Assembly: GCA_902536515.1 (NCBI GenBank) | Contig: CACAXU010000002.1 | Span: 26,951-90,950 of the forward strand | Reading direction: 5' to 3' | Origin: an uncultured Litorivicinus sp. | GTDB lineage: Bacteria > Pseudomonadota > Gammaproteobacteria > Pseudomonadales > Litorivicinaceae | Length of the DNA stretch: 64,000 bases | Shown: positions 46,307-52,791 of the stretch, in pieces | Position numbering within the stretch: position 1 is the first letter of the stretch | How the letters are laid out: every line of letters begins with the position of its first letter | Translations under genes and position numbers: made by a program | Notes under the pieces: model-generated | Seen by the model: only the letters and a program-made list of their open reading frames with translations | Databases searched by the model: none | Told to the model about the DNA's origin: nothing

Positions 46307-46627
46307 TTAGGCATCGTCGACTTGTAGTTCGATCACCCCCTTATCATTAATTCGGATAGGGAAAGTCGATACCTGTCCATAGGCAGGCGCAGACAGTGCT
46401 TGGCCTGTCTTGACACAAAATCTTGCGCCGTGTCGCGGGCATTCAATCTCACCGTTGATATAGAGACCACCACAGAGTTCGGCACCATCGTGTGTACACA
46501 AATCTTCGATCGCATAGACCGCATCACCTTCACGAAAAACCAACACATCCATCTCATCAAGCTCAAAGCGCTCATAAGCTCCATCGACGAGTGCATCGAT
46601 CGTTGAGATTTCAATCCAACTGCTCAT
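46307..46627 (-). CDS. Rieske-type [2Fe-2S] ferredoxin associated with SUF
   Basis: MSSWIEISTIDALVDG...EDLCTHDGAELCGG...IECPRHGARFCVKTG: CxH...CxxH ligand pattern; end of SUF operon. Confidence 0.92.
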   Translation of the reverse strand: MSSWIEISTIDALVDGAYERFELDEMDVLVFREGDAVYAIEDLCTHDGAELCGGLYINGEIECPRHGARFCVKTGQALSAPAYGQVSTFPIRINDKGVIELQVDDA

Positions 46628-46635
46628 AACGCCTC

Positions 46636-47190
46636 CTAAAATAAACCTGCCTCTAGACGTGCTTCTTCCGTCATCCTGCTTGCGTCCCAAGGCGGATCAA
46701 AGATCATTTGTATGTCTGCTTGGTCGACTCCCGACAGTGCTTCAATCTTTAGTTTGATATCTCGGGCCATGATGGGTCCCATACCACAGCCAGGGGCTGT
46801 CAACGTCATATCTACTCTGACATGCGTTCGACCATCGATGAGTTTGGAGATTCTCAAATCGTAAATTAAACCCAATTCAACGATATTCACTGGAATTTCC
46901 GGGTCATAGCTCTGTTTGAGCACATCCCACACTTGATCTTCTAGTGACAGTGTATCCATTGTGCGATGCTGCTTTGGGGCTTCAACACCAAGCCTGGCGA
47001 GATCGTCAGTCTCAATCCGGACCAAACGGCTACCAATGTCGAGCGTTAAGGTATCTCCAAGCGCCTGCATGACTGTGACTATCTCTCCGACACCAATGGT
47101 CAAAGGAATCCCCTGAGGGACTTGTTTCCCCGTCACATTCTCAAGGACGGTCAGTTCAGAGCCTTTGTCGAGTGTCGCAAAGGAGATCAT
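46636..47190 (-). CDS. sufT: Fe-S assembly protein SufT (DUF59/MIP18 family)
   Basis: VWDVLKQSYDPEIPVNIVELGLIYDLRI...MTLTAPGCGMGPIMARDIK...FDPPWDASRMTEEARLEAGLF. Confidence 0.95.
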   Translation of the reverse strand: MISFATLDKGSELTVLENVTGKQVPQGIPLTIGVGEIVTVMQALGDTLTLDIGSRLVRIETDDLARLGVEAPKQHRTMDTLSLEDQVWDVLKQSYDPEIPVNIVELGLIYDLRISKLIDGRTHVRVDMTLTAPGCGMGPIMARDIKLKIEALSGVDQADIQMIFDPPWDASRMTEEARLEAGLF

Positions 47191-48410
47191 CAGTCTGTCA
47201 GCATTCCTATCACGCGATCGAGTGCCTCAAGGAAACGATCCACCTCATCAACTGTGTTGTAAAACGCCACCGAGGCGCGCGCCGTTCCTGGCAGCCCAAA
47301 ATGCTCCATCGTTGGCATGGCACAGTGATGGCCTGTTCGTACCGCGAACCCGAGTTGATCAAGAAGCGTCCCGACATCGGTGGGGTGCGCGCCTTTGACA
47401 TTGAATGAACACACACTTGTCCAGTGTTCGGGGTGACCCAATACATCGACTTTTTTGCGACTCAGCATGGCCTCAATAAGATGTTGATGGACTTGGTGTT
47501 CATGGGCGATAGCAGCATCAAAATCGATGGATTCAAGGTAGTCTAGAGCCCTCGCAAACCCAATGGTATCGGCGATATTCGGCGTCCCTGCCTCGAATTT
47601 CCAAGGCAGTTCGTTGTATGTCGTTCCACTAAAGCTCACACGATCAATCATATCGCCACCGCCTTGCCAAGGCGGGAGAGACTCCAGTAATTCACGTTGG
47701 CCAATCAATACACCGATCCCAGTTGGACCACAGCATTTGTGTGCACTCACTGCGTAGAAATCCGCGTGAAGATCCTGCACATTGACTCGCATATGTGGTG
47801 CCGCCTGCGCTCCATCAATCACTGAAAACGCACTATTGTCCTTTGCCAATTGAATAAATCCCGAGATATCATTGATCGCTCCAATGGCATTTGAGACATG
47901 CCCTATCGCTATGACGGCAACTTTGTGTTCTTTACACAGGTTCTTCGCTGACTCCAAACACAAGGTTCCTGTGGCATCGACCGGAATTGGAATGACCTGA
48001 ATTCCAATTCGAGACTCAAGTTGTTGCCAAGGGACTATATTCGCGTGATGTTCAGTTTCGCCAACTAACACCACATCACCGGATTTGAGACCAGTTGAGA
48101 GAGTATTGGCGACGAGATTCAGAGCTTCGGTCGCTCCTCGGAGGAGGATGACTTCTCCAGTGTCTTCAACTCCAAACCATTGCCCAATTCGTGCGCGCGC
48201 GCCCTCATACGCGTCGGTTGCCTCACCGCTTAAGGTATGGACTCCACGATGGACGTTGGAGTTGTAGCGATCGTAGTAGTCACTGATCGACTCGATGACT
48301 GTTGTTGGCTTTTGTGACGTTGCAGCGTTGTCAAAGTAGACTAACGGTTGTCCGTTAACTTCACGCGATAAAATCGGAAAATCATCGCGAACACTTGCGA
48401 GATCAAACAT
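47190..48410 (-). CDS. sufS: SufS-type cysteine desulfurase
   Basis: PLVYFDNAATSQKP, YYDRYNSNVHRGVH, SAHKCCGPTGIGVLIG, VRTGHHCAMP. Confidence 0.97.
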   Translation of the reverse strand: MFDLASVRDDFPILSREVNGQPLVYFDNAATSQKPTTVIESISDYYDRYNSNVHRGVHTLSGEATDAYEGARARIGQWFGVEDTGEVILLRGATEALNLVANTLSTGLKSGDVVLVGETEHHANIVPWQQLESRIGIQVIPIPVDATGTLCLESAKNLCKEHKVAVIAIGHVSNAIGAINDISGFIQLAKDNSAFSVIDGAQAAPHMRVNVQDLHADFYAVSAHKCCGPTGIGVLIGQRELLESLPPWQGGGDMIDRVSFSGTTYNELPWKFEAGTPNIADTIGFARALDYLESIDFDAAIAHEHQVHQHLIEAMLSRKKVDVLGHPEHWTSVCSFNVKGAHPTDVGTLLDQLGFAVRTGHHCAMPTMEHFGLPGTARASVAFYNTVDEVDRFLEALDRVIGMLTD

Positions 48411-49599
48411 CGACAGATTCCTTGAGCTCGGCGATCAGTTCACCATGCTTCAATTCCCCCAAGAGTTGCGTCTCGACCAATTCTCGGATGTCTCGATGCT
48501 CAATTTTCTCGACGATTTTTTCTGCAAAAGCGTATTGCAGGAAGGCGCGGGCGTTGGCCTCTGACAGTCCACGACTTTTCAAGTAGAAAAGCTCAGTCTT
48601 ATTGAGACTACCAACAGTACACCCATGTGAAGCGGTTACATCGTCGGCATAGATTTCGAGTTCTGGTTTTGGATTCACGCGAGCAGATTCTGACAACAAA
48701 AGGTTTGCAATAGACTGCTCAGTCGCTGATCGTTGTGAATCTTTGCAGATCAGGACGCGACCATTAAATGTCGCCTCCCCTTTCCCATCGACCATATTTC
48801 TGAAGGTCATTTCACTGTTGGTTTCACCGACCACATGGTCAATCGCCAGATGTGTATCGTGGTATTGAGTGCCGCTTGTGATGGCAAGTCCGTTCACCGA
48901 AGCCGATGCCTCGCGCCCAACTAGAGCAATGTAAATATCGTTCCGAGCTAATTTCGATCCGAACTCAATCGTTTGTAGTCGGTAGTTCGCATTTTCACTA
49001 CATTCAACATCGAGATTGGAAAACACGTGAGCAGTAGCGTTGGCTGCTTGAAAGCGCACATGCGTGACCGATGAATCACGTGATAACGCCACCAGACAAC
49101 GTAGTGAGCTGAGATTTGCCGACTCAATATCGGTTGATTCGAATTGTTCGACCAGGGTCAGCTGTCCACCCGCCTCAACTCGCAATACGAGTGTTGCGAA
49201 ACCTGCTGAGCTCGCCTGATTCGCAAGGTGATGCAGATTTAGAACCACCGACGCAGTTTTTTGGATCGTAAGCACCAACCGATTGTTTTCAAGTGCAGCC
49301 TGGGTAAGACCAAATCCATGGGCCTGACTCATCCTGTCAAGGCGTGTCTGCTCGGATGCGGTCAGCGTATTCTCAGATACTGCGCATCCGTCGACCTTGG
49401 GGACATTGACAAATTGACCGCCCGTCAATGCAAATTGTTCTGTAGTCTGCGGACTTGCCGGTTGCCATGTAGTGCGTGCAAGGCCCCGGATCGGCACATA
49501 TTTCCATGACTCGACACGTTTGGTGGGTAAGCCAACTGCTAGCGCTTCTGACGCACAGACGTCCTTGACGTCAGCTAACCACTCACTGAATCCGCTCAT
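48403..49599 (-). CDS. sufD: Fe-S cluster assembly protein SufD
   Basis: KPELEIYADDVTASHGCTVGSLNKTELFYLKSRGLSEANARAFL. Confidence 0.96.
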   Translation of the reverse strand: MSGFSEWLADVKDVCASEALAVGLPTKRVESWKYVPIRGLARTTWQPASPQTTEQFALTGGQFVNVPKVDGCAVSENTLTASEQTRLDRMSQAHGFGLTQAALENNRLVLTIQKTASVVLNLHHLANQASSAGFATLVLRVEAGGQLTLVEQFESTDIESANLSSLRCLVALSRDSSVTHVRFQAANATAHVFSNLDVECSENANYRLQTIEFGSKLARNDIYIALVGREASASVNGLAITSGTQYHDTHLAIDHVVGETNSEMTFRNMVDGKGEATFNGRVLICKDSQRSATEQSIANLLLSESARVNPKPELEIYADDVTASHGCTVGSLNKTELFYLKSRGLSEANARAFLQYAFAEKIVEKIEHRDIRELVETQLLGELKHGELIAELKESVDV

Positions 49600-50339
49600 G
49601 CTGCTTCGATCCCTTCGTAGCCTTCGCGCTCGAGCCTTTCAGCCAGCGTATGGTCACCTGATAATTTGATTTCACCATGCGCCAACACGTGCACAAAGTC
49701 GGGTTTCACAATGTCGAGTAAGCGTTGGTAGTGCGTGATGAGTAAGACGCTACATTCTGGCGAGCGCATTCGGTTGATTCCTTCGCCAACAATACGAAGC
49801 GCATCAACGTCGAGGCCGGAGTCTGTCTCATCAAGGAGCGCGAGCGTTGGCTCAAGTAGTTGCATCTGCAGGATTTCATTCCGTTTCTTTTCGCCACCTG
49901 AGAAGCCTTCGTTGACGTTACGATGCAGGAAGGATTCATCCATTTGCATGACTTTGAGTTTTTCACGCACGAGTTTCAAAAAGTCACCAGCTTTTAACTC
50001 AGGGAGTTCGCGATGTTCTCGTATGGCGTTCACTGCTGCTTTCAACAAATAAATGTTTTTGACACCTGGAATTTCAACGGGATACTGGAAAGAGAGAAAC
50101 ACACCGGCCCACGCACGCTCCTCAGGCTCTAAATCGAGTAGGTTTTGACCCATGTAGATGACTTCTCCGTCGGTCACTTCGTAGTCGTCGCGGCCGGCAA
50201 GCACCGACGATAATGTGCTCTTACCGGAGCCATTTGGCCCCATGATGGCATGTATTTCACCAGTACCGATCTCAAGATTAATGCCTTTGAGGATGGGCTT
50301 ATCACTAACCCGTGCGTGTAGATTGCGAATAGACAGCAT
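49596..50339 (-). CDS. sufC: Fe-S cluster assembly ATPase SufC
   Basis: MGPNGSGKSTLSSVLAG, GFSGGEKKRNEILQMQLLEPTLALLDETDSGLDVDAL. Confidence 0.98.
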   Translation of the reverse strand: MLSIRNLHARVSDKPILKGINLEIGTGEIHAIMGPNGSGKSTLSSVLAGRDDYEVTDGEVIYMGQNLLDLEPEERAWAGVFLSFQYPVEIPGVKNIYLLKAAVNAIREHRELPELKAGDFLKLVREKLKVMQMDESFLHRNVNEGFSGGEKKRNEILQMQLLEPTLALLDETDSGLDVDALRIVGEGINRMRSPECSVLLITHYQRLLDIVKPDFVHVLAHGEIKLSGDHTLAERLEREGYEGIEAA

Positions 50340-51781
50340 CAGCCGATTGCTCCTTCAAGTGTGATACCAAGGAGTGCTTCGGCCTCGACGGCAAACTCCA
50401 TCGGAAGTTTTTGGAAGACTTCTTTACAGAAACCATTGACGACCATGTTGAGTGCGTCCTCTTCACTCATGCCACGCGTCCTCAGGTAGAACAACTGGTC
50501 ATCACTGACTTTTGACGTTGTGGCTTCGTGTTCAAGTTGAGCGCTGGGTTCTTGAGCCTCAACGTATGGGAATGTGTGCGCACCACACTGATCGCCGATT
50601 AGTAGCGAATCGCACTGTGTGAAATTCCGTGCATCAACAGCACCGGGCAGGACCTTCACCAATCCTCGATAGGCATTTTGACCGCGGGCAGTCGAAATAC
50701 CTTTTGAAATAATTGTTGAACGCGTGCGTGGGCCAATATGGACCATTTTTGTGCCGGTATCTGCTTGTTGCTTCTTCCCAGCAACTGCTACTGAGTAGAA
50801 CTCGCCAACGGAATCTGCTCCTTTTAAGACGCAACTTGGATATTTCCAAGTGATGGCGGAGCCTGTTTCAAGTTGTGTCCAACTGATCTTGGCTCGATCA
50901 CCACGGCACTCACCGCGCTTGGTTACAAAATTATATATTCCTCCTTTGCCTTCATCGTCACCAGCAAACCAGTTTTGTACTGTTGAGTATTTGATCTCGG
51001 CATCGGTTTCAGCAACCAGTTCGACAACCGCCGCGTGCAATTGATTTTCGTCACGTTGTGGTGCTGTGCATCCTTCAAGATATGACACATATGAGCCTTC
51101 CTCAGCGACAATGAGTGTACGTTCAAACTGCCCTGTGTTTTGCTGGTTAATCCGGAAGTAAGTCGAGAGCTCCATCGGACACCGAACGCCCTTCGGGATG
51201 TAAACGAACGAGCCATCCGAGAATACTGCCGAATTGAGAGCGCCATAATAGTTGTCGTTTTGAGGAACGACCGAGCCCAGAAACTTTCTCACAAGCTCAG
51301 GGTGGGAATGAACGGCTTCTGATAACGGGCAAAAAACAACCCCCGCTTCATGTAACTTTTCCTTAAAAGTTGTTACCACACTAACCGAATCGAAGACCGC
51401 GTCGACAGCGACACCTGCGAGCATCTTTTGTTCTTCAAGTGGAATCCCGAGTTTGTTGTACGTTTCGATCAATGCAGGATCGACTTCGTCTAGGCTTTTC
51501 GGTCCATCGCCTTGCTTTTTCGGCGCAGAAAAATAACTGATTGCCTGGAAATTAATTGGTGGGTAGTCAAGGTGCGCCCATTCAGGTGGTGTCATCTCAA
51601 GCCATTTGGCATAAGCCTCCAGCCGCCATTCCAATAACCACTTAGGTTCACATTTGCGGGTCGAGATTTCACGAATGACATCCTCATTCAAACCCGGCGG
51701 TAGTGTGTCGGATTCGATGTCGGTCACGAACCCATATTTATAGTCCTGGTCGACTAGTTGATCGATCTCTTGTTGACTCAT
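50339..51781 (-). CDS. sufB: Fe-S cluster assembly protein SufB
   Basis: [52 protein letters not shown]. Confidence 0.98.
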
Positions 51782-52233
51782 CAGTACACCTCCAAAGTCT
51801 CGATACGGCGATCGGATCGCGCATAGAGCGTGTGTGGGCTGATCAGGTCTTCCAACGTCGTTTTTGTCAGAATGTGATCCACCTGATCACCTAATTCCCG
51901 CCACCGTGACATCACTGAACAATGGTCGGTGAGCCGGCACAGCGTTTCATCTGTCCCGCACTCAGTTATCGCCGTCGGTCCCTCGATGGCCTCAATGATT
52001 ACTTTGACCGGGATTTGTGACGGTGCTTTCGCCAAGCTGTAACCGCCTCGAGCGCCTTGCCTTGATGTCAGCACACCACCTTTAACCAAGAGTTTGAGCA
52101 ACTTTATGCATGTTGGTTTCGGGATGGATGATTCGTCAGACAACTGCCCTGCTGACCACAGAACATCAGGATACTTTGCCATTTGAGCTAAGATCACTGA
52201 GGCGTAGTCAGTCAGTTTTGACAGTCGTACCAT
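51781..52233 (-). CDS. Rrf2-family SUF system regulator (IscR-like)
   Basis: [23 protein letters not shown]; Cys cluster [14 protein letters not shown]; first gene of the SUF operon. Confidence 0.95.
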
Positions 52234-52266
52234 CGGCGCACCACAAATAAATTCCGGGTATGCATT

Positions 52267-52291
52267 ATATAGGACTGATTAAGTCCTATAT
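52267..52291 (-). promoter_or_regulatory. IscR type-1-like operator in the SUF operon promoter
   Basis: ATATAGGACT-GATTA-AGTCCTATAT: 10-bp perfect inverted repeat with GACT-N5-AGTC core. Minus strand reads TTGATA-N17-TATATA(AT), so the operator occupies the spacer. Confidence 0.88.
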
Positions 52292-52298
52292 CAAGCGT

Positions 52299-52721
52299 TT
52301 ATGTGGATTTCGCAACCAATTGTGCCGCTTCCGCCTTCAGCCGTTGCAGCATGGAGGCAAGTCCATTCGCCCGTGTTGGCGATAAATGCTGAGATAAACC
52401 AATCGCTTCGACGAATTCAGGTTCTGTTTTGATTATGTCTTCTGCGGATGCATCGGAATACAAACGTACGACCAGCGCGATCAAACCTGAGACGATCGCA
52501 GCATCTGAATTCGCGCGAACGGACACATGGGATGCCTCACCGTCGACAACCATCCAAACCTGCGATTGACAGCCTCGGACTAAATTCGTTTGGTTTTTTT
52601 CTGATTCATCGAGCGGTTCAAGATCCTTGCCGAGATCAATCAAATATTGGTATTTGTCCATCCAGGAATCAAAAAACTGAAATTCGTCAATGATTTCTTG
52701 CTGTCTTTCAATCAATTGCAT
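52299..52721 (-). CDS. sufE: cysteine desulfuration protein SufE
   Basis: YLIDLGKDLEPLDESEKNQTNLVRGCQSQVWMV, GLSQHLSPTRANGLASML. Confidence 0.96.
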   Translation of the reverse strand: MQLIERQQEIIDEFQFFDSWMDKYQYLIDLGKDLEPLDESEKNQTNLVRGCQSQVWMVVDGEASHVSVRANSDAAIVSGLIALVVRLYSDASAEDIIKTEPEFVEAIGLSQHLSPTRANGLASMLQRLKAEAAQLVAKST

Positions 52722-52791
52722 GTGTGGTCTCACTTCAAAAGGTCACGACAGGGTATACTCCGTCGCAAATTCACGAAACTGACAGGTAGTT

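Follow-up and report, generated by a model that had tools for sequence, protein, structure and literature searches.

Results

The 64-kb stretch of DNA analysed here (the window), which named relatives place among the Litoricola-like marine Gammaproteobacteria (Litorivicinus at NCBI), contains upstream of its suf genes a palindrome that is very probably the autoregulatory operator of the TIGR02944-type Rrf2 SUF regulator, at which a cluster-loaded dimer is predicted to repress the suf run. The operator and SUF autoregulation are strongly supported by the sequence comparisons presented below, and repression is likely to be cluster-dependent and more RisR/NsrR-like than IscR-like.

Direct reading of positions 52267-52291 gives a perfect 10-bp inverted repeat with a 5-nt spacer, exactly as claimed in a preliminary description of this DNA, and the arms can be lengthened to 15 nt with imperfect symmetry (87%). 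The repeat occupies a 65-bp gap between sufE, which ends at 52299, and the Rrf2 gene, which starts at 52233, both on the minus strand. Length by itself makes only a weak case for the palindrome, given that two perfect repeats with 10-bp arms and spacers of 3-8 are present in the window versus 0-1 per shuffle; its significance comes from its position and conservation. The regulator gene heads the suf operon, with sufB directly downstream, and the regulator, sufB, sufC, sufD, sufS, SufT-like and Rieske genes follow each other on the minus strand, overlapping or nearly touching (Table 1). At its end the sufT-like gene overlaps with the gene for the Rieske-type ferredoxin.

Table 1. Coordinates of the operator, the predicted promoter elements and the suf genes in the window.
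Feature	Position	Strand	Basis and remarks
Operator, 10-5-10 perfect palindrome	52267..52291	.	ATATAGGACT-GATTA-AGTCCTATAT; core TAGGAC-N7-GTCCTA
Left arm	52267-52276		ATATAGGACT
Spacer	52277-52281		GATTA
Right arm	52282-52291		AGTCCTATAT
Putative -35 hexamer TTGATA	52289..52294	-	Family conservation; overlaps palindrome arm in part
Putative -10 hexamer TATAAT, perfect	52264..52269	-	Family conservation; 19-nt spacer
Alternative -10 TATATA	52266..52271	-	17-nt spacer
sufE-like	52299..52733	-	ORF and profile match; directly upstream of operator
Rrf2-family SUF system regulator (TIGR02944), 150 aa	51781..52233	-	Profile score, AlphaFold fold
sufB	50339..51781	-	888.9 bits
sufC	49596..50339	-	Profile match
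sufD	48403..49599	-	218.6 bits, slightly under model cut-off of 222
sufS	47190..48410	-	Profile match
SufT-like (TIGR03406)	46636..47190	-	193 bits, slightly under cut-off of 202.6
Rieske-type [2Fe-2S] ferredoxin, final gene of overlapping run	46307..46690	-	ORF and profile match

The proposal that the operator lies inside the promoter of the regulator-sufBCDS-sufT-Rieske run is supported by the TTGATA-TATATA/TATAAT geometry of the predicted promoter. At the -35 offset, TTG is kept in all 22 family members with context, with a mean of 5.0 of 6 matches to TTGACA. Across the family the TATAAT offset (19 nt) averages 5.4 of 6 matches versus 4.1 of 6 for the TATATA offset (17 nt), so of the two -10 candidates TATAAT is the better conserved in the genus. 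The flanks originally named, TTGATA and TATATA, are both present with a 17-nt spacer, but the better conserved TATAAT had been overlooked. A simple sigma-70 promoter scan called nothing at the operator, TATATA being a poor -10 and TATAAT requiring a 19-nt spacer. Outside the family, 58% of operators have TAnnnT at their centre (positions 10-15), and a weak -35 peak lies 17 bp upstream; there the operator would usually cover the -10. In the Litoricola-like family it is shifted into the spacer, its ends overlapping the -35 and the -10. In either geometry the bound protein would block polymerase. This position is not new, since Pseudomonas aeruginosa IscR site B likewise sits between -35 and -10 (PMC6599224).

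Among 25 genomes of the genus and family, the operator stands before the regulator gene in 22 (20 of the genus, the window counted, and 2 of a sister genus), and the other three have neither the site nor a detected gene. The presence of the repeat in close relatives, on which the preliminary description had staked its reading, was therefore found wherever the gene was (22/22), and this coupling of site to gene supports the assignment of the operator to the adjacent Rrf2 protein. The upstream regions of the family read TAGGACY-N5-RGTCCTA, always with TTGAWA to the left; the -10 after the operator is TATAAT, TATACT or TATCAT in the genus and TATTAT at 17 nt in the sister genus. Whole-genome pattern scans with one mismatch allowed gave one site per genome, at the regulator gene, in 22 of 22; one genome (G015) has one additional one-mismatch match, on another contig. 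With three mismatches, 56-109 matches per genome were obtained versus 193-318 for a reversed-pattern control, and no wider regulon was seen in the family genomes, where matches with two or three mismatches were fewer than in the control. Because there is one site per genome, at the regulator gene, and no hidden excess at three mismatches, the operator is, on comparison of these genomes, a dedicated local one-site loop and not a global IscR-like regulon, its single copy resting on the relatives. It is likewise comparison that establishes the site itself, its conservation, its coupling to the gene and, as described below, its difference from type-1 sites.

To extend the comparison, relatives were compared by gene-anchored upstream regions instead of by a bare type-1 pattern, and a 25-bp matrix was fitted to the upstream 250 bp of 116 TIGR02944 genes of Gammaproteobacteria, with the genus down-weighted. 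All but one of these regions (115/116) exceed the 99% shuffled level, with a median of 25.4 bits versus 4.8, and on a coding-region control the matrix reached at most 0.4. The class consensus is AAWTAGKACTAWWWTAGTMCTAWTT, in which AC-N7-GT is nearly invariant. Within the 64-kb window the operator scores 25.1 bits and the runner-up position 4.1. Further named loci outside the genus all scored above 10 bits (73/73), including Cupriavidus (Betaproteobacteria) and Niveispirillum (Alphaproteobacteria); some of these overlap the training families, and only the Alpha/Beta loci are fully independent. Sites such as AAAACGTACAATTTCGGTCCTAATT were found in Arenimonas (Xanthomonadaceae). In each of the 80 named TIGR02944 loci sufB lies downstream on the same strand. 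Literature searches outside subscription journals found no dedicated paper on TIGR02944 operators. The matrix can be used to look for SUF autoregulation in Gammaproteobacteria at large and in some Alpha- and Betaproteobacteria, and it sets SUF-class sites apart from IscR sites, which consensus searches confuse.

The regulator scores 128.8 bits on the TIGR02944 'SUF system regulator' model (cut-off 110.65), against 52.7 bits on the IscR model TIGR02010 (cut-off 207.55) and 47.4 on a second IscR model (cut-off 275). It is the only Rrf2 protein found in its own assembly, which is 60.8% complete, and has orthologs 96% identical in AG-915-K04 and 93% identical in LSUCC0096. An AlphaFold model (mean pLDDT 82.5) has the Rrf2 fold, about equally close to CymR, RsrR, IscR and NsrR, a comparison that does not discriminate among them. 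Residues were aligned with Escherichia coli IscR and Streptomyces coelicolor NsrR, the two reference sequences having been compared with the ligand positions in the literature and with the CEGDNPC turn. By this alignment the window regulator has Cys92, Cys99, Cys105 and Asp9, and P40, T41, I43 and K44 in its HTH. The three cysteines are kept in 115 of 115 TIGR02944 proteins, and Asp9, aligned with the NsrR intermonomer ligand Asp8, is Asp in 113 and Glu in two. At the position of IscR His107 the window regulator has Met, and none of the 115 has His; K44 is present in all 115 where IscR has Gln44, and residue 43, Glu in IscR (E43), is Ile in the window. The position of NsrR Arg12, the partner of Asp8, is Val13. 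The ligands alone, three Cys and an Asp, suggest an NsrR/RisR-like [4Fe-4S] cluster.

Residue 43 also varies with the operator. Arg or Lys at this position goes with AT half-sites at operator positions 6-7 in 19 of 22 cases, versus 1 of 77 for other residues, and Ser, Ile, Val, Thr, Ala or Gly is found where positions 6-7 are GG or GT. IscR E43, the equivalent residue, contacts the operator (PMC9338935), and in this way the coupling ties the regulator to its DNA. On the tree the correlation is phylogenetically clustered, and no more than one origin is required by the starred branches; we count it only as support, not as a record of many independent events. A specificity switch at the IscR E43 equivalent is possible, and residue 43 offers a simple specificity-swap experiment.

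Discussion

The original identification of the palindrome as a true IscR type-1 site, which would be read by an IscR-type [2Fe-2S] protein, is improbable. The window site has the 25-bp register and the GACT-N5-AGTC core in common with type-1 sites and is identical to the E. coli consensus ATASYYGACTRWWWYAGTCRRSTAT at 18 of 25 positions, which is why it was seen as a type-1 fit; verified P. aeruginosa IscR sites reach only 68-76% identity (PMC6599224). The layout invoked, ATAnnnGACTnnnnnAGTCnnnTAT, however, leaves positions 4-6 free, where true type-1 sites have SYY. We built an IscR matrix from the regions upstream of 30 iscR genes in this class. IscR and SUF-class sites share the register A1, A8, T10 and T25 and differ at positions 4-6 (SYY versus TAG), and the matrix score differences part the two sets of sites without overlap. 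At the six discriminating positions the window site matches none, against four to six matches in 30 of 31 IscR-promoter sites, and it scores -3.0 bits on the IscR matrix against 25.1 on the SUF matrix; the type-1 identity is rejected on these grounds. The regulator in turn falls far under the IscR cut-off and has no E43, Q44 or H107, and no IscR was found in its own assembly at 60.8% completeness. A search for an isc operon, suggested earlier, was run and found no isc system belonging to the genus itself. Among the 22 genomes there were two strong IscU matches, in G007 and G015 (C336). In G007 (C17:17500-22500, L271) an IscR gene stands beside the IscU match, with a canonical type-1 site, ATTCTTGACTAAAATAGTCGGGAAT, that the matrices assign to IscR. 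This contig, the only one with ISC genes that was examined in the genus, is judged contamination because its GC content (57% versus 48%) and tetranucleotide make-up (correlation 0.18-0.45 versus 0.79) differ.

The remaining alternatives concern the signal and the nature of the repeat. The regulator might bind the operator but respond mainly to NO, iron, redox or cysteine, as NsrR, RirA, RsrR and CymR do, and not to cluster supply. In favour of this, NsrR, an Rrf2 protein in which the Cys3-Asp ligand pattern is the same, senses NO (PMC5411485), and the predicted fold is about as close to CymR, RsrR and NsrR as to IscR; but the suf operon is the only target found, with no second strong site, and RisR, whose operator core is the same, exerts feedback on isc and suf (PMC9973013), so that we consider a different main signal unlikely. 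It is very improbable that the repeat is a transcription terminator or an RNA hairpin closing sufE: a perfect 10-bp stem with a 5-nt loop does begin 8 nt past the sufE stop, but no T run follows the stem, the palindrome is not among the terminator calls, and the same motif precedes the regulator gene in families with no sufE found upstream. Moreover, inner positions vary without base-pair compensation, operator positions 10/16 occurring in all four combinations, including C/A (the latter in 8 family members), which argues against an RNA stem, and the hairpin was rejected. A chance palindrome in an AT-rich promoter has almost nothing to commend it; while finding one perfect 10-bp palindrome within 64 kb is nothing unusual, conservation in 22 of 22 relatives and across the class-wide family refutes it.

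In the autoregulatory model that we favour, a regulator dimer, most likely loaded with an Fe-S cluster, would bind TAGGAC-N7-GTCCTA in the -35/-10 spacer and bar RNA polymerase from the promoter. The regulator-sufBCDS-sufT-Rieske transcript would then be low when clusters are plentiful and would rise once the regulator's cluster is lost or not supplied. The loop would be dedicated to one site, with a design like that of IscR or RisR and an operator of the class of the regulator's own family. We infer binding, repression and the transcription start, and, with less certainty, the dependence on a cluster and its type. A design in which an Rrf2 Fe-S protein represses the assembly operon that it belongs to has been described before, and the system is ordinary in kind. 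No cluster-assembly system other than SUF was found in these marine bacteria with small genomes, and the operator would therefore be where their iron-sulfur supply is set.

In outline the ISC-style feedback suggested earlier is plausible, but among tested systems RisR is the closest model, the regulator is not an IscR equivalog, and the homology to ISC that the suggestion implies is not supported. Myxococcus xanthus RisR heads risR-sufBCDSUT, its holo form represses, and its footprint at the -35/-10 contains T(t/g)GAC-N7-GTCC(t/a); the authors of that study suggest that it carries a [4Fe-4S] cluster and is more closely related to NsrR than to IscR (PMC9973013). As in the window, the Rrf2 gene heads a sufBCDS operon, the protein has three Cys and residues unlike IscR S40/E43/Q44, and the operator combines a GAC-N7-GTC core (GGAC-N7-GTCC in the window) with AT-rich flanks over the -35/-10. 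RisR differs in also repressing a separate isc operon and in its Cys spacing (C92, C102 and C108 versus C92, C99 and C105). We read the window regulator as a RisR-like feedback repressor because it has the same operator core and NsrR-like ligands; the likeness is one of core and ligands.

Other systems resemble it in part. E. coli and P. aeruginosa IscR share the 25-bp register, the ACT/AGT core, the A and T ends, the operator inside the promoter and first-gene autoregulation of an Fe-S assembly operon; in contrast, their sites have SYY at positions 4-6 where the window has TAG, and IscR, which has His107 and E43/Q44, regulates globally; no IscR belonging to the genus was found. S. coelicolor NsrR is alike in its three Cys, an N-terminal Asp at the Asp8 place and a Lys at the IscR Q44 position, but is an NO sensor of hmp genes with an unrelated operator, and its Arg12 is not kept. 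Cyanobacterial and mycobacterial SufR are also autorepressors of sufBCDS operons but belong to a different protein family, with the operator CAAC-N6-GTTG (PMC8593673).

The Xanthomonas campestris regulator, reportedly named and filed as IscR by Fuangthong in 2015 (cited in PMC6599224 and PMC8593673), is an Rrf2 protein of a SUF-only gammaproteobacterium. It probably belongs to TIGR02944, since that family takes its name from Xanthomonas. Its site is listed among the IscR type-1 sites in PMC6599224. Tentatively, then, TIGR02944 may be a lineage within Rrf2 whose members are SUF feedback repressors, each dedicated to a single site, with an operator code particular to them (residue 43: AT versus GG/GT) and a Cys3-Asp cluster replacing the Cys3-His of IscR, such sites, for example that of Xanthomonas, having been wrongly pooled into the type-1 logo; we regard this as a possibility well worth entertaining, if somewhat short of probable.

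Weak NifU_N (PF01592) matches of 61-72 bits, in proteins of about 160 aa, were seen in most of the genus (G002, G004, G006, G008, G009, G011, G017, G018, G020 and G021), and no such protein was detected in the 99%-complete G001. It looks like another NifU_N-domain protein, possibly SufU-like or some other scaffold.

In the Litoricola-like family sufE lies on the same strand directly upstream of the operator, and the other named loci showed no sufE in that upstream position. The window's sufE would fall outside the repressed unit and would escape the feedback on SufBCDS, unless the sufE transcript reads through.

Two tandem SUF-type operators, for example TCAGGACTATATTAGTCCTACATTATAGGACTAGATTAGTCCTC, lie upstream of the TIGR02944 gene in several families (L066 in G159, L069 in G391, L100 in G382, L101 in G233 and L103 in G268), which suggests two dimers and graded repression there.
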